From: Gallaecimonas mangrovi | Lineage (GTDB): Bacteria; Pseudomonadota; Gammaproteobacteria; Enterobacterales; Gallaecimonadaceae | Length of the DNA: 64,000 nucleotides | Direction: 5' to 3' | Assembly: GCF_003367375.1 (NCBI RefSeq) | Contig: NZ_CP031416.1 | Coordinates: forward strand, 62,001 to 126,000 | Shown: piece after piece, positions 44,736 through 53,093 of the stretch | How the letters are laid out: each line of letters opens with the position of its first letter | How positions within the stretch are numbered: position 1 is the first letter of the stretch | Made by a program: the position numbers and the translations under genes | Notes under the pieces: model-generated | Told to the model about the DNA's origin: nothing | The model's input: only the letters and a program-made list of their open reading frames with translations | Database searches by the model: none

Positions 44736-46202
44736 TTACGGCAGTGCAATTCCTCGGCGGGCAAAACGCTTGTTAAAGCGGTGTGATGCCGCAAAAAACA
44801 GCACCCCAAAAATAAGCGAGGCCAGCGCCAGGTAGGAATAAAAGTGGGTGTAAATCGGCAGCGTTAATTGTGGTGCTACTTTTTTCTCTGGCAAAGCGAC
44901 GAAGTCACTGAGCTTGCCAGATACCAGGTTGGCCAGCGAGACCACCAGATAGAACACACCCATGGCAAAGGCCATCATTTCCATTTCGCAATAGAGCGAA
45001 ATCATCGACAGGCCGATGGCGCTTATCAGTAGCTCCGAAATGGTCAGTGTGAAGTACGCCAGGCCAACAAAGTTGCCGCTGACCAAGCCGTTGTGTTCGG
45101 AAAAACCCGACAGGTACAAAAAGAAGATACCCAGTGCGCCCAACAGCAAGCCCGCCGAAAACTGGTAAGGGATATTGAACTGCGGGAAGCGCTTGTAGAT
45201 TTTCGAAATAAAGCTGCCAATTAAAATAATGGCAATGGGGTTAATCAGCTGGAATGACGCCGGATACAGGGTAAAGCCCAGCAGTTTGTGGTCGGAATTG
45301 TTCTTGGTGAACAGAATGAGGCTGGTGTTCATTTGCGCGTAGAGCACAAAGAAGGCAAATACCGCTAACAGCAGGTAAATAGACAACATCTGTTTGGAAC
45401 GGATCTCACCGCTCAAATTCAGGGTCTTCAGCAAATAAACCAGCAAGGTCACCACGATAGCAGCGCCGATCAGGTAGAACGACAGATGTGCGTGGGAGAA
45501 CAGGAAGCAGGTAACAAAGTAAGCCACCGCACAATAAAGCACTAAAATGCCGAGCTTTTTCATGCCAATAGGCATGGCATCTTCGCCGTGCATTACATCG
45601 TCGTAGAGCTTACGGCGCAGGGCAAAGTTGAGCCAGGCAATAAACTTGCCGACAAAGGCCACCAAAAATACCGACATCGGGCCAAAGCTTGAATGCAATA
45701 GATAAGGGGCTAAGCCAATACCCAACATTGAGCCCACGTTAATGGTGATGTAGTACACCGTCATCGCGCGCTTGGATGAATGCTCGTCGTCTTTGAAGAT
45801 ACGGCCAATCAGCGCTGACGCTGTACCCATGTACAAAGAGCTGCCCAAAGGCACCAGCGCATAAGCGAGGAAAAAGGCTTGGCGCATATTGCCGGTAAAG
45901 GCATGGGTGCTAATCACCAGGGCCAGAAAACCAAAGGCCAGAATACAGGCGCCGTAGCTCATGGCGCGCCTGACTCCCAGCACTTTATCCGCAAGGTATC
46001 CGCCGACAACTGGCAGTATGTAACCCATGGCTTGCACCACGCCGTAAAGCATATAGGCGTCATGGTCGTTCAGGCCAAGGCCAGACTGGGCCACTGGCAT
46101 GGTGAGAAAAACAATGAGGATACCGGCAAAGGTATAGCTGGCGAACATACTCCAGAAGGTCATGCTGGCGATGTTCAAAAGTTGCTTTGTTTTAATGTTC
46201 AT
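44736..46202 (-). CDS. POT/PTR2-family transporter with atypical first helix
   Basis: 488 aa with about 12-14 membrane helices. Family features: GGYLADKVLGVRRAM after TM2, YYITINVGSMLG (the FYxxINxG motif, about residues 160-171), FFVLYAQMNTSLILF in TM7, and TISELLISAIGLSMISLYCE in TM10. The TM1 proton-coupling motif ExxERF is missing: the aligned stretch reads FWSMFASYTFAG. So di/tripeptide transport with the usual coupling is doubtful; another substrate is likely. A CRP-like site lies about 105-120 bases upstream. Adjacent to a lyase and DcuC carrier in the same direction. Confidence 0.85.
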   Translation of the reverse strand: MNIKTKQLLNIASMTFWSMFASYTFAGILIVFLTMPVAQSGLGLNDHDAYMLYGVVQAMGYILPVVGGYLADKVLGVRRAMSYGACILAFGFLALVISTHAFTGNMRQAFFLAYALVPLGSSLYMGTASALIGRIFKDDEHSSKRAMTVYYITINVGSMLGIGLAPYLLHSSFGPMSVFLVAFVGKFIAWLNFALRRKLYDDVMHGEDAMPIGMKKLGILVLYCAVAYFVTCFLFSHAHLSFYLIGAAIVVTLLVYLLKTLNLSGEIRSKQMLSIYLLLAVFAFFVLYAQMNTSLILFTKNNSDHKLLGFTLYPASFQLINPIAIILIGSFISKIYKRFPQFNIPYQFSAGLLLGALGIFFLYLSGFSEHNGLVSGNFVGLAYFTLTISELLISAIGLSMISLYCEMEMMAFAMGVFYLVVSLANLVSGKLSDFVALPEKKVAPQLTLPIYTHFYSYLALASLIFGVLFFAASHRFNKRFARRGIALP

Positions 46203-46420: not shown

Positions 46421-47788
46421 TTAATCGAGTAAAACTTTGGCAAAGGCCAGCGCTTCGTCAATTAAGGCGTCATTGGCGCCCAAATGGTTGGCGGGGTCGC
46501 AAGCGGCTTTTAGCTCGTCGTAACTGAAATACTGCATCAGCTCGGGAGACGTGAGCAAAATGTCTTCCAGCTGCATGCTGCTGTCTTGATGACGGGCAAT
46601 GGCTTCTTTGACCAGCCGGTAGCCTTGGTCGCGGCCTACCTTGTCGGCCACCTTCATCATTACCGACTCCGACATAATAAGGTGGCGGGAGGCTTTAAAG
46701 TTCTCTCGCATTTGCTCGCTATTAACGTGCAAGTGGGTAAGCATTTTTTCACCCCGGTGCAGGGCACCTGACACCGCCAGGCAAGACTCTGGCAGTAAGG
46801 ACCAGTCCAGCATTCGCGCAGCCGATGAGCGTACATCGGTTTGGTCTAGCATGTTGGGCGCACTGGACGCGTACATCCAACCCAGGCGAGCCATGGCTTG
46901 AATGCTGTTCGCTGCCCTGGGGTTGGCTTTATGGGGCATGGTGCTAGAGCCGCCGCCTTCTTCGCCTTCACGCAATTCAGCGATAGAGGCGCGGCTCATC
47001 AGCTCGACGTCGTTAGCGATACGCTGCAATGAGCCATGCACCAAGGCAAAAAACTGTATTACTTCCACCAAGCTGTCATGGCTGGCATTCCATTGGCCAA
47101 CCGGCCTTGGCAAACCCAGTTTGTCCAGTAACAGGTTGCGAATGGCAATACCGTTTGGGCCGGCAGATGACAGGTTGCCAATAGCGCTACCGTACATACC
47201 GGTGGTGGCTCTTGGGGTGATCTGGGCCAGGCGTTGGTAGTGGCGGCAAAATTCACTGAGGTAGCCGCTCACATGAAAGCCCCAGGTGCTGGGCGACGCA
47301 TCCTGAGCGTTGGTGCGGGCCACCATCAGGGTATGGCGGTGGGTATTTGCCATGGCTGCCAGCTGTTTTATCACCTGCTGCAGCTGCATTTTGATAAGCG
47401 CTAAGGCCTTAGCTAAGCGCATGGCCTGGCCGCTATCGAGTAAATCTTGGGTGGTACTGCCCCAGTGCAGGTAGTGCTTTACTTGCTCGTTACCGGCGGC
47501 GGCAACTTGGTCAACCACCGGTTTGACGGCCATACCCACCTTGCGGGTGTCGTCGGCGAGCTGCTGCCAGTCGATGTGTTCAAGGCGGGCTGCCTTGGCA
47601 ATGGCGTCTGCCGCAGCTTGCGGTATCACCCCAAGCTGGGCCTGCGCCGATGCCAGCGCAATTTCGTAATCTAACCAGGCTTGTACCATGGCCGTATCAG
47701 ACCAAAGCTCGTGCATTGGCGGGTAGCTAAACAAGGGTGAGTACACCGCGGAATCAAAAATAGACACATTAAGTGACGGCACGGACAT
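46421..47788 (-). CDS. Fumarase/aspartase-superfamily lyase (PurB/PcaB-like)
   Basis: 455 aa. Superfamily signature GGGSSTMPHKANPRAAN (about residues 280-296) with the flexible catalytic loop serine, conserved HWGSTTQDLLDSGQAMRLA near 107-125 and DASPSTWGFHVSGYL near 165. The lineage looks like the class II lyases related to 3-carboxymuconate cycloisomerase and adenylosuccinate lyase, but the neighbours are not purine or protocatechuate genes. Most members eliminate an amine or alcohol from a C4-dicarboxylate and release fumarate; the adjacent DcuC carrier fits such a substrate. Starts three bases after the dcuC stop, with GGGAG in the dcuC end. True substrate unknown. Confidence 0.88.
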   Translation of the reverse strand: MSVPSLNVSIFDSAVYSPLFSYPPMHELWSDTAMVQAWLDYEIALASAQAQLGVIPQAAADAIAKAARLEHIDWQQLADDTRKVGMAVKPVVDQVAAAGNEQVKHYLHWGSTTQDLLDSGQAMRLAKALALIKMQLQQVIKQLAAMANTHRHTLMVARTNAQDASPSTWGFHVSGYLSEFCRHYQRLAQITPRATTGMYGSAIGNLSSAGPNGIAIRNLLLDKLGLPRPVGQWNASHDSLVEVIQFFALVHGSLQRIANDVELMSRASIAELREGEEGGGSSTMPHKANPRAANSIQAMARLGWMYASSAPNMLDQTDVRSSAARMLDWSLLPESCLAVSGALHRGEKMLTHLHVNSEQMRENFKASRHLIMSESVMMKVADKVGRDQGYRLVKEAIARHQDSSMQLEDILLTSPELMQYFSYDELKAACDPANHLGANDALIDEALAFAKVLLD

Positions 47789-47790
47789 GC

Positions 47791-49152
47791 TCAGACTCCC
47801 AGACTACACAAAATAATGAGGGTTAAAATACCGCCAATCATTGGCAGGGCGGTACGTTTGACCAAATCCATAGGGGAAATGTCAGCCACCCCCGCGCAAG
47901 CGATCACGACACCTGAAACCGGCGAAAATGAGCGGAACAGGCCCGCAGCCAGCTGCATTGGCATGGCGATAACGGCGGTGCTCACCCCAGCTTGGGCAGC
48001 AACCCCTGGGGCCAGGCTTGAGAAACTAAAGAAGGCGGCGTTGCCGGAGCCGGACAAAATCGCGGTGACGCCGATAATGGCAATCAGCACAATAGTGATG
48101 GCCAGATAACCAAAGCCTAAATGCTGCGAGGTCGACAATAACAGGTCGATAAAGCCCATGGCTTTAAGGCCCGCCACAAAGGTTTGGGCGGCGATAATAA
48201 GAGATACCACCGACGCAAAAATGGCGCCCATACCTTGCAGGTAAACCGACAGCGACTGTGCAACTGCCTTGCCGTCACGCTGGTAGAGGTACTGGCAGAT
48301 CATGGAAATGAACAGGCTCAGGAACATGGCGGTTATCACGTCCATGTGGATGGAGGCCACCGCATATTTGCTGAAGGTCAGCAGCAGCGCCAAGGGCAAT
48401 ATCGGCAGAATGGCGAACCAATTAGGTGATGCCTTTTTATCCTCTTTATCCACATTAACGGCTTTAAGATTACCGAGCTTAGAGTCGCGTTTATCAAAAT
48501 AAGCCTGCGACACATAATGCAGCAGCGCGATGACAATCATCACCACCGGTGCATAGGCAAGCTGGTGCTGCACAAAGTAGGTGGCGGCATCGATGCCAAT
48601 CACATCAGCCGCTTTGTTAGAAGCGCCAGAGGCGGGCCCTAAATCCAGGCAGGCGGTGGTGGCAATAACCGCGGCGGCACTGGCCGGTGAACAGCCGACG
48701 TTAACGAGAACGGGATATAGTGCCACCAGCAACAGCATGGCCAAGCCCACGGCGCTGGGAATAAAAATGTTCAGTACCTGGCCTAGCAAGTAGGTCAGAG
48801 ACAAAATCACATAGGGATTTTTGATGTAAGACAGCGGCTTGGTGGTCACTCTGACCATGGCATCGGACGCGCCGATATGGTTCATGTATTTAGAAAAGCC
48901 GCCCACTGACATGATGATAAGCCCCAAGTTACCCAAGGTAGTGGAGCTAAAGTATTTAATAATAAGGAAAAGATCGATCACTTGGCTGCCGGATGAAGCG
49001 AGGCCCTTAGGCAGGAAACCGCTATGGCCGAATAACTCTCCTAACGCCATCATTAAAAGGCCGGTTAAAAAGAGCACCGCGGAGGTGTGATACTTTTTTA
49101 TAACTAAGTAACCCGCGCCGATGACGATGGGGACCGAGAGTAGTGCAATCAT
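47791..49152 (-). CDS. DcuC-family C4-dicarboxylate transporter
   Basis: 453 aa with about 12-14 membrane helices. DcuC family motifs: VNVGCSPASAAAVIATTACLDLGPASGASNKAAD (about 148-180), AILSGSGNAAFFSFSSLAPGVA near 360 and the C-terminal RSFSPVSGVVIACAGVADISPMDLVKRTALPMIGG. E. coli DcuC exports succinate and takes up fumarate or aspartate. Operon with the lyase; GGAAT precedes ATG 49152. Promoter region carries the palindrome at 49244. Confidence 0.92.
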   Translation of the reverse strand: MIALLSVPIVIGAGYLVIKKYHTSAVLFLTGLLMMALGELFGHSGFLPKGLASSGSQVIDLFLIIKYFSSTTLGNLGLIIMSVGGFSKYMNHIGASDAMVRVTTKPLSYIKNPYVILSLTYLLGQVLNIFIPSAVGLAMLLLVALYPVLVNVGCSPASAAAVIATTACLDLGPASGASNKAADVIGIDAATYFVQHQLAYAPVVMIVIALLHYVSQAYFDKRDSKLGNLKAVNVDKEDKKASPNWFAILPILPLALLLTFSKYAVASIHMDVITAMFLSLFISMICQYLYQRDGKAVAQSLSVYLQGMGAIFASVVSLIIAAQTFVAGLKAMGFIDLLLSTSQHLGFGYLAITIVLIAIIGVTAILSGSGNAAFFSFSSLAPGVAAQAGVSTAVIAMPMQLAAGLFRSFSPVSGVVIACAGVADISPMDLVKRTALPMIGGILTLIILCSLGV

Positions 49153-49243: not shown

Positions 49244-49260
49244 GGGAAATCTTTCTTCCC
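49244..49260. promoter_or_regulatory. 17-base palindrome GGGAA-N7-TTCCC, proposed operator
   Basis: GGGAAATCTTTCTTCCC, 40 bases before the regulator ATG and about 90 bases upstream of dcuC. Same half-sites and spacing as the two sites before the porin gene. Proposed binding site of the RpiR-type regulator encoded next to it; inference from shared occurrence. Confidence 0.6.
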
Positions 49261-49299
49261 AAAATACAATACTAAAAACCACCTGAAAAAGAGGTACTT

Positions 49300-50166
49300 A
49301 TGCCAGATGCAGAAGTCCTGAATCTTGCAGATTACAAAGAAAAGGTGGCCCTACTGCAGCATCTACCCGAATCAGAACTGAAGGTTGCCGGTTATATCGA
49401 GCGGATCTTCAAGGAATTGTCCTATTACGGGATCACTGATATTGCCAATACTTGTGGGGTCAGTAAGGCAACCATTGGCCGTTTTCTTAATAAAATCGGA
49501 TTTTTAGGTTATACCCGGTTTAAAATTGCCGTTGTTAATTCATTGGAAACAGCGCGACATCCCTACCCGTTAGAAGCGGCCAATAATGGGATGGAAATAG
49601 AAAATGAACCGATGTTCGACTCCCACATCCATGATGTGGTTAACAATCTCTATGACTCTTCGGAAAGCATCTCTGCTCAAGACTTTGATGAGGCTGCCAG
49701 CCACTTAGCTGACGGCTCGCGTAGCCTCTACATCATTGGCCCGGCATCAAGCGGTGCGCTGGCAGTCTACTTTTCGACCTTTATCCGCTATGTGCGCCCT
49801 GACGTACACCGGCTGTCACTGGACACCTCTTTTTTACCGCATAACTTATTAGACGTTGATGAAAATAGCGTTTTATTTGTGGTGTCGTTTTACCGCTTTA
49901 ATGTTGAAGCGGCAAAAATTACCAAGTGGTTTAAAAAGAAAGGGGCAACGGTCATTGTATTAAGTAATACTCAGGCAAATCCCTATAGCCCTTATAGTGA
50001 TATTGAGTTAATTGTTGCCAGTAAAACGCGCAGTATATTTCAAAGCCGGAGTAGTGGTTTAGTTTTAATTGAAGCATTGCTGCGAAAAATAGCTCAACAG
50101 AATTTAAATAAAGAAAGAATGGAATCACTGGAAGAGCTATTTGGCGAATTTAATACCTTTCCATAA
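49300..50166 (+). CDS. MurR/RpiR-family regulator with SIS domain
   Basis: 288 aa. N-terminal RpiR-type helix-turn-helix (about 12-75; LPESELKVAGYIERIFKELSYYGITDIANTCGVSKATIGRFLNKIGF) and a C-terminal SIS sugar-phosphate-isomerase-like domain (about 125-260; LYIIGPASSGALAVYFSTFIRYV, NSVLFVVSFYR). SIS domains mostly bind phosphosugars; here the neighbours point to a C4-dicarboxylate-linked compound. GAGG precedes ATG. Divergent from dcuC-lyase with the palindrome between; probably their regulator. Confidence 0.9.
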   Translation: MPDAEVLNLADYKEKVALLQHLPESELKVAGYIERIFKELSYYGITDIANTCGVSKATIGRFLNKIGFLGYTRFKIAVVNSLETARHPYPLEAANNGMEIENEPMFDSHIHDVVNNLYDSSESISAQDFDEAASHLADGSRSLYIIGPASSGALAVYFSTFIRYVRPDVHRLSLDTSFLPHNLLDVDENSVLFVVSFYRFNVEAAKITKWFKKKGATVIVLSNTQANPYSPYSDIELIVASKTRSIFQSRSSGLVLIEALLRKIAQQNLNKERMESLEELFGEFNTFP

Positions 50167-50171
50167 ATAAA

Positions 50172-50200
50172 AAGGGCCCCAATTAAATTTGGGGCCAATA
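50172..50200 (-). terminator. Terminator of the porin-hydrolase-MORN operon
   Basis: GGCCCCAA/TTGGGGCC stem (50175-50182, 50189-50196); minus strand continues CCCTTTTTATTTA. No T tract in the plus direction. Confidence 0.75.
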
Positions 50201-50226
50201 CCACTTACAGAAACAATTAACTTTCT

Positions 50227-50928
50227 TTAGTCTTTTAACCAGTAAGGGTGCAATCCTTTTGCATCAGTTACCTTAGCAACCTGTTTGCCATTTTTATATT
50301 CAATGGCATATACCGGCAAATCATGGCGGTATTGTACTTCGGTAATTAACTGGCCTTGCTCGTTGTAGATTTTGCGCATTCCTTCACGCGACGAGTGCGA
50401 GTAGGGAAGGGTTTGCATGACCTTGCCATTCTTGAAGTAGTCGGTGCGGGTACCGGTACGCTGGCCTTTGTGGTCATGCTCAATATGGCTTTTCACCTCA
50501 CCACTGCGGTAGTAGTCCACCTCTTCGGTATTACGGGCGCGGCCGCGCTCGTAAGTGGTGGTCATTTTCAGTTTGCCGTTATCCCAATACTCTTTTAGCG
50601 GGCCGGTCAATTTACCTTTTTTGTTATAGGTAATTTCCAGGCGCACTTGGCCATTTTCAAAATACTGCACGTATTTTCCGTATGGCTTGTTGTGGCGATA
50701 TTCGCCCTTGGATAACAACTTACCGCTTGGGTAATACGCTATTTCTTCACCATTTCGTGAATGTTTTTTACCGGTTACGCCAACGACAACTTTTACTTGG
50801 CCGCCGGGGTAATAGGTGGTTTCTTTTCCGTTAGCGTAAGTTGGTGCGCCTAAGGTGTAGTCATTGGCCAAGACCGAACTTGACCCCAACACCAACAGCG
50901 AGGCAATAAGCAGATTACTTGCTTTCAT
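50227..50928 (-). CDS. Exported MORN/YwqK-type repeat protein
   Basis: 233 aa. Signal peptide ending SVLA; mature part made of about seven repeats with the pattern YY.sGkv...y..g...G (e.g. YYPSGKLLSKGEYRHNKP, YFENGQVRLEITYNKKG, YWDNGKLKMTTTYERGR), as in YwqK-like/MORN_2 repeat proteins. Likely periplasmic or surface protein-protein or glycan contact role; no enzyme motif. ATG 50928 has GGGTG upstream; GTG 50937 is the alternative. Overlaps the end of the hydrolase gene. Third gene of the porin operon. Confidence 0.82.
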   Translation of the reverse strand: MKASNLLIASLLVLGSSSVLANDYTLGAPTYANGKETTYYPGGQVKVVVGVTGKKHSRNGEEIAYYPSGKLLSKGEYRHNKPYGKYVQYFENGQVRLEITYNKKGKLTGPLKEYWDNGKLKMTTTYERGRARNTEEVDYYRSGEVKSHIEHDHKGQRTGTRTDYFKNGKVMQTLPYSHSSREGMRKIYNEQGQLITEVQYRHDLPVYAIEYKNGKQVAKVTDAKGLHPYWLKD

Positions 50929-51838
50929 TGACGTCACCCATAATCACTTTGATGGCATCTTGCTGAACGATGTAATTGTCATGTTCAGCACCTACGACGG
51001 TGTGCTCTTTCCAGTTAAACGGCGTTTTTAACTGTTTGGCGACGGCTTCGGCATATTTAAAGTAGTAATGCCCACGTTCAAAGCGTCCGTCGATACCGGT
51101 TCTGTTTGGCTCGGGAGCGTTACGGAACAGGTAATGGTTAAAGTCGTCGTCGTGGTCACCCAGCATCAAGGTGATAGGCAGTGCGAAGAAATGCTTTAAG
51201 GTTTCGGCATTAATGGCATCAACACCTTGGATGCTATAGGGCCATCTTTCATCGCGGGTGGGCAGGGTGTACCAGCCGGGGTTACCGACGATAGCCAGCT
51301 TAATGTCGGCCTGCGGGTAGAACATCAGCATGCGAATTAAAAACTGGCTGCCACCGCCGTGGCCATAGGCGTAGTAACGCTTGGCGTTGGTTTTCTCCCG
51401 GTGCTGGAAATCGGCAAAGATTTTATTGGGCAGCGTAAAGCTCCACTGATCTTTGGGATTAATCTGCTTGGGAACCACCTGGCCTTTCAGCTCGGCGCGG
51501 CTTACCGCGTGGTAGACGTTACCCAGGTTGTAGCCGTTGACGCTGGGATAGAGCCGGTTAGAAAACTCCGGCACCAGCAACATCAGGTTGTATTTTTCTG
51601 CCAGCGCTTTCCACTGGGCTGAGTATTCATCGGCATTGCGTTTACGGCCGTGAAACACAAACAGCACCGGGGTATTGGCGTTGTAATGGGAAGGCTTGTA
51701 ATACCAGATCTTCATCAACTGGCCGCCCTGCCCGGTGGACGCCGGCATGGTGAAATTGTAGGTGTGATAGCCCTGTTCCAGCGCAGCGTTCGCACCAAAC
51801 GAGCACAGTACCACCAACAAAGTGAGAAGATATTTCAT
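50915..51838 (-). CDS. Exported alpha/beta-hydrolase-fold protein lacking nucleophile Ser
   Basis: 307 aa. Signal peptide ending GANA, then a PHB-depolymerase/feruloyl esterase-like fold: PVLFVFHGRKRNADEYS (oxyanion side, about 57-73), nucleophile elbow YGHGGGSQFLIRM (158-170), acid-side LMLGDHDDDFNHY near 220, and His in VVGAEHDNYI near 285. In active relatives the elbow reads GHSxGG; here position 161 is Gly (codon GGC), so the usual nucleophile is lost. S164 is three residues on and not in the usual geometry. May bind rather than cut its ligand, or use another mechanism. Operon with the porin (15 bases) and the MORN protein. Confidence 0.82.
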   Translation of the reverse strand: MKYLLTLLVVLCSFGANAALEQGYHTYNFTMPASTGQGGQLMKIWYYKPSHYNANTPVLFVFHGRKRNADEYSAQWKALAEKYNLMLLVPEFSNRLYPSVNGYNLGNVYHAVSRAELKGQVVPKQINPKDQWSFTLPNKIFADFQHREKTNAKRYYAYGHGGGSQFLIRMLMFYPQADIKLAIVGNPGWYTLPTRDERWPYSIQGVDAINAETLKHFFALPITLMLGDHDDDFNHYLFRNAPEPNRTGIDGRFERGHYYFKYAEAVAKQLKTPFNWKEHTVVGAEHDNYIVQQDAIKVIMGDVNESK

Positions 51839-51853
51839 AAATCACCTTTGTGG

Positions 51854-52906
51854 TTAGAAGTAATAGCGAAGCCCAAGCAGGTAGCTGTTTTCGTCGTTCA
51901 CACGGTCACTTAGATAAGTCGCTGCCAGATACGTTTTTCTGGCCAGACGATACTCCAGCTCCATCCGCCAGTCTTCTTTCTTGCGGGTAACCGAGATCTC
52001 GCGGATAGACGAATAACCCAGGGTCATGGTGGTGCGGTTGGTAACGCTGTAGGCCAACATCGAGTCAAAACCGTTGAATTCACGCTTGGTGTAGTCAAAG
52101 TCGGTCAAGGTTTGGTGGTTGGCAGTAACACCCAGGTTCCAGTCGCCGTAGTACATGTCGAAACCGCCCATGTATTGGCGATGCTCACGCTCGTTTTCAT
52201 CGGCAATGCTATCGGCAGACGCTTTAAAGTCGCTATAAGCCAGAGCTGGGCTGAATTTAAAGTCGCCATTGCGGTAGTCGTAGCGGTAACTGGCCATGTT
52301 GCCGTAATCAACCCGGGCATCAGACTCGCCATTGCCCATCACCCGGGCAAATTCGAAGGTGTTATGGCCGTTGGTGTAGTTCCACTGCACGGTGGCGTCT
52401 TGGCGGTTAAAGCTGTAGGACTTGTCGACACGGCTAAGCAGGTAGCTATTGGTATCCGGGGTCCAGTTAATGTACTTGTAGGTGATTTTAATGACCTGCC
52501 ACAGCGGGTTTTGGGTACGGCCAATCAGTAAGTCACCGTATTTCTTGTTACTCAGGCCCAAATAGGCGTAACGCGGTGTCCAGGTGCCGTCGCTGCTGTG
52601 GGTGTCGTATTCCTCGGTGTTGGTTTGCCACTCATATTTGCCCACCACCTTGGTGCCTTCCAGGAAGGTGCCGTCAAGGCCGGTTAAGTAACGGGACATG
52701 GCAAAACCCAAACGGCCACCCATGCGGGCTTCGGCGCCGCTGTCTTCATCGCGGTTCCAACCGTTACCAATTTGCGCCTGCAAACGGCCATAAACATCGA
52801 GGGTGTTATCGGCATCTTTGTAGACGGTGGCGCCATAGCTCGTTGATGACATTGCGCTCAGGCCTAATGCCACTGCCAGGGAGGCAACTTTAATTTTTTT
52901 ATCCAT
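51854..52906 (-). CDS. Outer membrane porin (general porin fold)
   Basis: 350 aa. Signal peptide MDKKIKVASLAVALGLSAM ending near SYGA, mature N-terminus TLDVYGRLQAQIG as in Gram-negative trimeric porins, many alternating strands with aromatic girdles and a terminal Phe (LLGLRYYF) for BAM recognition. Acidic loops. ATG 52906 has AGGA seven bases upstream; a frame extending to 53047 would place extra 47 residues before the signal peptide and is rejected. First gene of the porin operon; upstream carries two copies of the proposed operator. Confidence 0.88.
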   Translation of the reverse strand: MDKKIKVASLAVALGLSAMSSTSYGATVYKDADNTLDVYGRLQAQIGNGWNRDEDSGAEARMGGRLGFAMSRYLTGLDGTFLEGTKVVGKYEWQTNTEEYDTHSSDGTWTPRYAYLGLSNKKYGDLLIGRTQNPLWQVIKITYKYINWTPDTNSYLLSRVDKSYSFNRQDATVQWNYTNGHNTFEFARVMGNGESDARVDYGNMASYRYDYRNGDFKFSPALAYSDFKASADSIADENEREHRQYMGGFDMYYGDWNLGVTANHQTLTDFDYTKREFNGFDSMLAYSVTNRTTMTLGYSSIREISVTRKKEDWRMELEYRLARKTYLAATYLSDRVNDENSYLLGLRYYF

Positions 52907-52994
52907 TGTGTGTTCCTGCTGTTTGGTTATTGCTGCGGGGGCTCTATTTTTCGGCCCCGGGCAGATTAAACGGCATTTCCAGCAAGAAACTGGC

Positions 52995-53011
52995 GGGAAA
53001 GCATGTTTCCC
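52995..53011. promoter_or_regulatory. Proposed operator, copy 1 before porin
   Basis: GGGAAAGCATGTTTCCC, half-sites GGGAAA/TTTCCC, same GGGAA-N7-TTCCC layout as at 49244. About 90 bases upstream of the porin ATG. Confidence 0.6.
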
Positions 53012-53018
53012 GGCGAGT

Positions 53019-53035
53019 GAGAAATGAACTTTCCC
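53019..53035. promoter_or_regulatory. Proposed operator, copy 2 before porin
   Basis: GAGAAATGAACTTTCCC, one mismatch to GGGAA-N7-TTCCC, 24 bases from copy 1 start to start (a little over two helical turns). Confidence 0.5.
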
Positions 53036-53047
53036 GGCAATAGCCAA

Positions 53048-53078
53048 AAAACAAAAGGCCGGTTAACCGGCCTTTTGT
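53048..53078 (-). terminator. Terminator of the HD-GYP gene
   Basis: Minus strand AAAAGGCCGG/CCGGCCTTTT stem around TTAA, followed by GTTTTTTGG. Confidence 0.85.
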
Positions 53079-53093
53079 TGGGTCAGCAAAGAC

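Follow-up and report, generated by a model that had tools for sequence, protein, structure and literature searches.

A GGGAA-N7-TTCCC palindrome as the probable operator of a local RpiR-type regulon with a DcuC-family carrier in Gallaecimonas mangrovi

In a 64-kb stretch of the Gallaecimonas mangrovi genome (contig NZ_CP031416.1, positions 62,001 to 126,000 of the forward strand; hereafter the window, numbered from its first base), a 17-base palindrome, GGGAA-N7-TTCCC, recurs in two gaps of a locus that encodes an RpiR-type regulator. We consider it probable (roughly 0.85) that this palindrome is the operator of the adjacent regulator, which would run a local, autoregulated catabolic regulon consisting of a porin, a hydrolase, a DcuC-family carrier and a lyase; most likely the regulon serves a C4-dicarboxylate-type compound, a substrate class read from family names. 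The original prediction had reported three sites with these half-sites at 49244, 52995 and 53019. All three coordinates are right and the first two sites are perfect, but the third carries one mismatch (GAGAA-N7-TTCCC), a variant found again in relatives (it reads GGGAA-N7-TTCTC on the opposite strand). The predicted operators are the following.

O1, 49244–49260, no strand assigned, GGGAAATCTTTCTTCCC: predicted operator between the divergent dcuC and rpiR genes
O2, 52995–53011, no strand assigned, GGGAAAGCATGTTTCCC: predicted operator upstream of the porin operon
O3, 53019–53035, no strand assigned, GAGAAATGAACTTTCCC: predicted operator, 24 bp from O2

The signal lies in the placing of these sites, not in their number. 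Allowing at most one mismatch, the window holds four matches (22235, 49244, 52995 and 53019) against 2.17 expected, and since four were reached in 21 of 100 shuffles, the count alone proves nothing. Nor is there enrichment across the whole genome (4,071,977 bases), with four perfect copies versus six for a reversed control, or in 22 genomes taken together (56 versus 113). Two of the four perfect genome copies, however, fall in the gap between dcuC and rpiR (147 bp) and in the one upstream of the porin (187 bp), where about 3e-4 copies would be expected by arithmetic from the genome rate. Many random hits elsewhere in the genome had been named in advance as a reason to abandon the idea; few were found, the 22 genomes having 0 to 5 perfect sites each, and 23 of the 56 perfect copies sit in rpiR/dcuC/porin loci of 17 of these genomes, as tallied against the locus maps. 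The remaining two perfect copies in the genome lie at C1:411859 and C1:528190, the former (L003) 20 bp before an outer-membrane-protein-like open reading frame (ORF) beside a LysR-like ORF, outside the locus (ORFs read by eye).

Comparison with relatives carries most of the argument. A search of 296 Vibrionaceae genomes gave RpiR matches in 55 at an E value of 1e-25 or better, among which we examined the 30 best loci and then eight weaker matches. In 26 of the 30 best loci a perfect site lies 56 to 176 bp from the start of the rpiR match, two more have a one-mismatch site, and the two without any site within 1.5 kb (G653 and G630) carry sites at the porin and/or dcuC instead. Among 30 mapped related RpiR loci, 29 have, upstream of rpiR, dcuC or the porin, a site that departs from the pattern at no more than one base, the exception (L096) having an interrupted rpiR and no dcuC; such a site occurs in only 3 of 315 other upstream regions, each time overlapping the same sites from the other side. 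When no motif was supplied, an unbiased dyad search placed GGGAA-N7-TTCCC first (23 of 30 loci), the runner-up reaching six loci and the maximum in 20 shuffles being four. In the resulting profile the arms are nearly fixed, the 7-base centre is nearly free (positions 7 to 11 at 0.22 bits or less), and a weak A/T preference extends outside. When a matrix was trained on 49 sites, none of them from the window's genus, its three best matches in the window were 49244 (score 19.8), 53019 (14.7) and 52995 (10.3), followed by a fourth match at 6.0. The link between sites and regulator, put forward earlier as an inference, is strongly supported by the recurrence in related loci, the first rank in the dyad search and the held-out matrix, and the proposed comparison of orthologous promoters found the sites kept within the genus, in Vibrionaceae, on Providencia and Proteus plasmids and in E. 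coli.

Within the genus, the regulator and the porin occur in the same two of five genomes. In the second of these, G001, whose RpiR is 73% identical to that of the window, the dcuC/rpiR gap carries GGGAAATCCCTATTCCC and the porin gap holds two perfect copies 22 bp apart. Alignment of the two genomes showed that in O1 and O2 the arms have stayed the same where flanks or spacer have changed, and that the third site is shifted by 2 bp and is perfect in G001. Outside its module G001 has a single perfect copy, which falls within an ORF elsewhere. In the three genus mates that lack rpiR, the genome-wide numbers of perfect copies are 0, 2 and 1.

Several observations weigh against this assignment: (i) 7 of the 30 mapped loci have no perfect site (23 do), and the tally becomes 29 of 31 if L093, a second, divergent RpiR of G437, is counted, which had been left out and used as a control after its map showed neither dcuC nor site; (ii) many of the 30 loci are closely related, several of them near-identical, so that the counts are not independent, and 22 weaker Vibrionaceae matches were left out; (iii) the scores of O1, O3 and O2 were reached in 0, 1 and 10 of 20 shuffled windows, respectively, which sets O1 and O3 apart, but not O2 taken by itself; (iv) L064 has a second perfect site just downstream of rpiR (L064:8932) with no gene start behind it, and an E. 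coli copy of the module has one inside the malic enzyme gene (L104:13647), which we take for chance; (v) a Morganella plasmid (L106) keeps the sites without an annotated rpiR; and (vi) scans of the dcuC/rpiR and porin gaps found no sigma-70-like promoter in either, so that repression by occlusion is conjectural. Absence of the site from other RpiR branches speaks for the assignment: a class-wide search (8 of 369 genomes matched, the window's own included) returned seven distant RpiR loci with a site in none of the seven, and L093 has none either. A scan of GTDB contigs gave one locus, in Vibrio ouci, nearly identical to that of G047.

Three other accounts of the palindromes can be set against these data. 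If they belonged to a different, more widely shared regulator and lay near rpiR by coincidence, the two further perfect copies in the genome and the sites on the Morganella plasmid would be readily accommodated; the low copy numbers per genome, the concentration in rpiR/dcuC/porin loci, the count of only 0, 2 and 1 copies in the genus mates that lack rpiR, and the recurrence next to rpiR in Vibrionaceae, in E. coli and on plasmids of Providencia and Proteus make this quite improbable. That the palindromes act as RNA hairpins, as terminators or attenuators and not as protein sites, was raised by the flagging of O2 as a terminator-like hairpin on the porin strand. However, its tail has no T run, a separate terminator-like hairpin lies at 53050–53079, and across loci the arm sequence is nearly fixed around a nearly random centre. 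A hairpin would need pairing and not one fixed sequence, and we give this account very little weight. A chance cluster of three sites fits the unremarkable one-mismatch count in the window, but conservation in relatives and the rank given to the sites by the held-out matrix reduce its probability to next to nothing.

With the palindrome read as the operator of the adjacent regulator, the genes of the locus fall into two groups. The dcuC and lyase genes run divergently from rpiR, and on the minus strand the genes for the porin, the hydrolase and the MORN protein follow one another head to tail, either overlapping or separated by less than 20 bp. The features are listed below.

49300–50166, plus strand: rpiR, predicted RpiR-type helix-turn-helix (HTH_6) and SIS regulator, 288 aa, predicted fold matching RccR and NanR
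47791–49152, minus strand: DcuC-family carrier, 453 aa, above DcuC family cut-offs and below both E. coli DcuC equivalog cut-offs
46421–47788, minus strand: fumarase/aspartase-superfamily lyase, 455 aa, 2 bp after dcuC
44736–46202, minus strand: POT-family peptide/H+ symporter, a possible end of the dcuC operon
51854–52906, minus strand: porin, 350 aa
50915–51838, minus strand: predicted secreted alpha/beta hydrolase, signal peptide by eye
50227–50928, minus strand: predicted secreted MORN-repeat protein overlapping the hydrolase gene, signal peptide by eye
53050–53079, no strand assigned: terminator-like hairpin, with the porin operators on one side and the gene of a neighbouring HD-domain response regulator on the other

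The regulator has the expected N-terminal HTH_6 domain (PF01418, 53 bits, cut-off 28.3) and C-terminal SIS domain (PF01380, 37.3 bits, cut-off 25), with fold matches to RccR, NanR and MurR; the full-length Foldseek TM-scores of about 0.5 add only that the fold is RpiR-like. The carrier scores above the cut-offs of NF037994 (395.4, cut-off 100) and TIGR00771 (342.5 bits, cut-off 187), the family it has in common with the anaerobic C4-dicarboxylate carrier DcuC of E. coli, but remains below the equivalog cut-offs of the latter (331.5 vs 513 and 319.6 vs 623); C4-dicarboxylate transport is a putative function read from the family name. Unlike E. coli DcuC, the carrier is tied to an RpiR regulator, a porin and a lyase. 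The window porin itself has no Pfam match, whereas its relatives in L066 and L089 match Porin_4, and relatives with 36 to 41% identity share the module in L066, L089, L101, L102 and L104. The hydrolase is weakly like PHB-depolymerase esterases, below cut-off. A POT symporter 78% identical to that of the window is encoded at the equivalent position in G001; none was seen in the other modules.

The finding runs counter to the usual reading of RpiR proteins as sugar regulators. In the alignment the phosphate loop reads SSSGST in NanR and SQSGRS in RccR; the corresponding stretch of the window regulator is SFYRFN, the pattern of its group being S[FY][YH]R[FY]. The SxSGx[ST] phosphate-binding loop of phosphosugar-sensing RpiRs is absent here, and Ser196 and Arg199 do not vary among the 24 aligned sequences, the window's included. 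According to the excerpted text of PMC12713135, conservation of the phosphate loop is high among RpiRs with a known effector, and the four effectors compared there are all phosphorylated carbohydrates, which gives some weight to the view that the present regulator also takes a phosphosugar and that its C4-acid link is indirect, as does the retention of Ser150 in the first loop and of Ser196. Since the loop conserved in those proteins is replaced here, however, an ordinary phosphosugar effector appears unlikely, and no sugar gene was recognised in the mapped modules, in which flanking ORFs were not all identified. Arg199 may instead meet a carboxylate. An Arg at that position is also present in five distant RpiRs (L011, L012, L015, L016 and L093), none of which has the site, so the loop change marks a wider sub-branch than this regulon. 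These same five served as controls, with L013, L014 and L017 left out (L017 did not align as RpiR), and all five lack Lys56 of the helix-turn-helix, which is invariant in 24 of 24 aligned members and is a candidate specificity residue.

From the observed conservation, placement and co-occurrence of the sites we infer physical binding, repression, an inducer and a substrate along the following lines: (i) an RpiR dimer would bind each palindrome, the site between the divergent rpiR and dcuC promoters providing autoregulation and control of dcuC and the lyase gene, and the close pair, 22 to 24 bp apart, controlling the porin-hydrolase-MORN operon; (ii) the secreted hydrolase and the porin would bring the compound to the periplasm, from which the DcuC-type carrier would import it; (iii) the fumarase/aspartase-type lyase would split it and feed C4 acids to malic enzyme where that is present; and (iv) the regulator would probably repress until an inducer binds the SIS domain. 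A repressor relieved by its inducer is likely because PMC12713135, as excerpted, calls activation by NanR unique in the RpiR family. Wider gaps in other loci hold two to four sites, with pair spacings of 192 to 197 (seven), 204, 214, 215 and 222 bp, and a phase statistic on these 11 spacings departs from uniform (R 0.64, p 0.008; the loci are related). The range of 150 to 260 bp was chosen after seeing the data, spacings of 86, 103 and 108 bp were left out, one of the sites has two mismatches and one lies in the start of an rpiR gene; the phasing fits looping weakly. As the window porin pair is only 24 bp apart, any loop there would be of another kind.

The operator is common to two types of module. 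One, type 1, consists of rpiR-dcuC-pepT, in many cases together with pepE, and has an AstE-like gene in L009/L010; type 2 combines dcuC, the lyase gene and rpiR, to which the porin and a secreted hydrolase are added in the window, G001, L066, L089, L101, L102 and E. coli. The porin and secreted hydrolase were not seen in the stretches fetched for L064, L067/L090, L091 and L092, save for an L064 porin that is only 23% identical. An NAD-malic enzyme accompanies the module in E. coli, on the plasmids and in L066, L067/L090 and L089; none was seen in the window, G001, L064, L091 or L092. In other genera the hydrolase belongs to DUF4886 and sometimes carries an SGNH/GDSL annotation. The regulon had been proposed to comprise the porin, hydrolase-like and MORN proteins, DcuC and the lyase: the porin, a secreted hydrolase, DcuC, the lyase and RpiR do recur together in other families with the same sites, but the MORN protein was seen in no locus other than those of the window and G001 and so does not belong to the wider module. 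Type 2 is also found, with rpiR, on plasmids of Providencia, Proteus and Vibrio, and in E. coli 80 of 5,426 complete genomes match, with 80% or more of the query present in 78 of them; 64 records stand at 99% or more and 16 at 80 to 90%. There the lyase gene adjoins the porin gene, two sites lie in the porin/lyase gap and one in the rpiR/dcuC gap, and all three keep their arms between two variants of the module while flanks or spacer change.

In the lyase, the flexible-loop stretch GGGSSTMPHK.NPR is invariant in 11 of 11 relatives; GSSxMPxKxN with its catalytic Ser is what we take to be the loop signature of the fumarase/aspartase superfamily. All 18 NCBIfam matches fall below their cut-offs, and the labels adenylosuccinate lyase and PcaB/carboxymuconate cycloisomerase were rejected on these scores. 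The closest solved sequences are the trans-aconitate decarboxylase TAD1 (9h4e and others) and the fumarate lyase 3c8t (E 1e-84 to 1e-76), both of moderate similarity and likened to the window lyase by sequence, not by genomic setting. A stretch that is RTH in 3c8t reads RTN in 11 of 11 lyase relatives and RSN in TAD1, so that TAD1 shares an Asn with the window lyase where 3c8t has His. Trans-aconitate decarboxylase function was rejected, its sole grounds being this shared Asn and the moderate similarity, with no structure paper in the literature searched. From aspartase enzymology, RTN suits a leaving group that needs little help, such as an amine, a thiolate or a carboxylate. Because malic enzyme often lies beside the lyase, a fumarate- or malate-yielding reaction is the likeliest. 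Another member of the superfamily, S-(2-succino) lyase (2SL), releases fumarate from a succino adduct and is described, in the excerpted text of PMC9706529, in yxe-type clusters with an acetyltransferase, a deacetylase and an ABC transporter. This identity was not adopted, as no yxe-type cluster was recognised around the lyases here and the sequences were not compared; around L101, L102 and L104 there is no annotated yxe-type partner apart from an N-acetyltransferase 3' of the malic enzyme gene, present in L101/L105/L106, and unnamed ORFs elsewhere were not all identified.

Among known systems, HexR and RccR of Pseudomonas (RccR, PDB 8ju9 and 8k3b) have the RpiR architecture in common with the window regulator, RccR being among its best sequence and fold matches. 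The excerpted PMC5489143 gives their operators as pseudo-palindromic (TTGT-N7-8-ACAA for HexR, TGTAGT/ACTACA for RccR, which also binds at its own gene) and the effector as 2-keto-3-deoxy-6-phosphogluconate; the window operator differs from both, as far as that text goes, and the phosphosugar loop is absent from the window regulator. NanR (Vibrio vulnificus, 4ivn, and Streptococcus pneumoniae) likewise has the RpiR fold and, according to the excerpts of PMC12713135, a local catabolic regulon with several sites, as is proposed here. These excerpts propose a NanR tetramer bridging sites and describe sensing of N-acetylmannosamine 6-phosphate, with the phosphate held by Ser135, Ser179, Ser181 and Thr184, a loop that differs from its window equivalent, S[FY][YH]R[FY]. 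The present work proposes a probable operator, with its regulon, for a branch of RpiR regulators on which the literature searched gave no paper; no paper on this regulon was among the matches listed in the open-access literature, whose scope leaves aside subscription papers and regulon databases, where an earlier prediction may exist. It also defines a module that occurs in marine bacteria, in E. coli and on plasmids from gut bacteria, and the tight constraint on the operator should make it straightforward to screen for the substrate with a reporter.

A more far-reaching scheme, which we regard as speculative and rather doubtful as a whole, would join these strands: an RpiR sub-branch without phosphosugar sensing, with Arg in place of the phosphate loop, might sense a carboxylate and, via tetramer-bridged GGGAA-N7-TTCCC operators, run a portable scavenging module (secreted ester hydrolase, porin, DcuC-type carrier, non-classical RTN lyase and often NAD-malic enzyme) for a malyl or succino conjugate not described before, and a sister branch with the same operator might run DcuC and PepT, often with PepE, perhaps for aspartyl peptides. 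If so, both branches would handle a C4-dicarboxylate head group attached to something else.

Further observations concern individual loci. A second perfect site lies just downstream of rpiR at L065:8997. In L094 and L096 the rpiR gene is either split into two ORFs (G710) or has an internal stop (G612, where dcuC was not seen either), which suggests that the system is decaying in some strains. Close to the operators, TGTGA-type sequences that look like CRP sites were noted by eye (L104:8583-9000, L066:3135-3503 and L101:6353-7000). In one genome, the gene immediately before rpiR (L066:8897-11749) encodes a 950-aa FAD/Fe-S protein that resembles D-2-hydroxyacid or glycolate dehydrogenases and is possibly a clue to the substrate. 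Among the plasmids, L101 (NZ_CP123252) is a Providencia NDM-1 plasmid and L102 (NZ_CP092685) a Vibrio campbellii plasmid typed as conjugative, both with type 2; on L105 (Proteus) and L106 (Morganella) the annotated porin is shorter and the DUF4886 gene is not annotated. The Vibrio diabolicus plasmid L103 (NZ_CP069194) carries rpiR-dcuC-pepT-pepE with a perfect site (L103:6021) beside chondroitinase-family lyases. The two variants of the E. coli module (L104, L107 and L108) are about 85% identical and lie beside insertion sequences, and 14 of the 25 best-scoring E. coli matches come from poultry.

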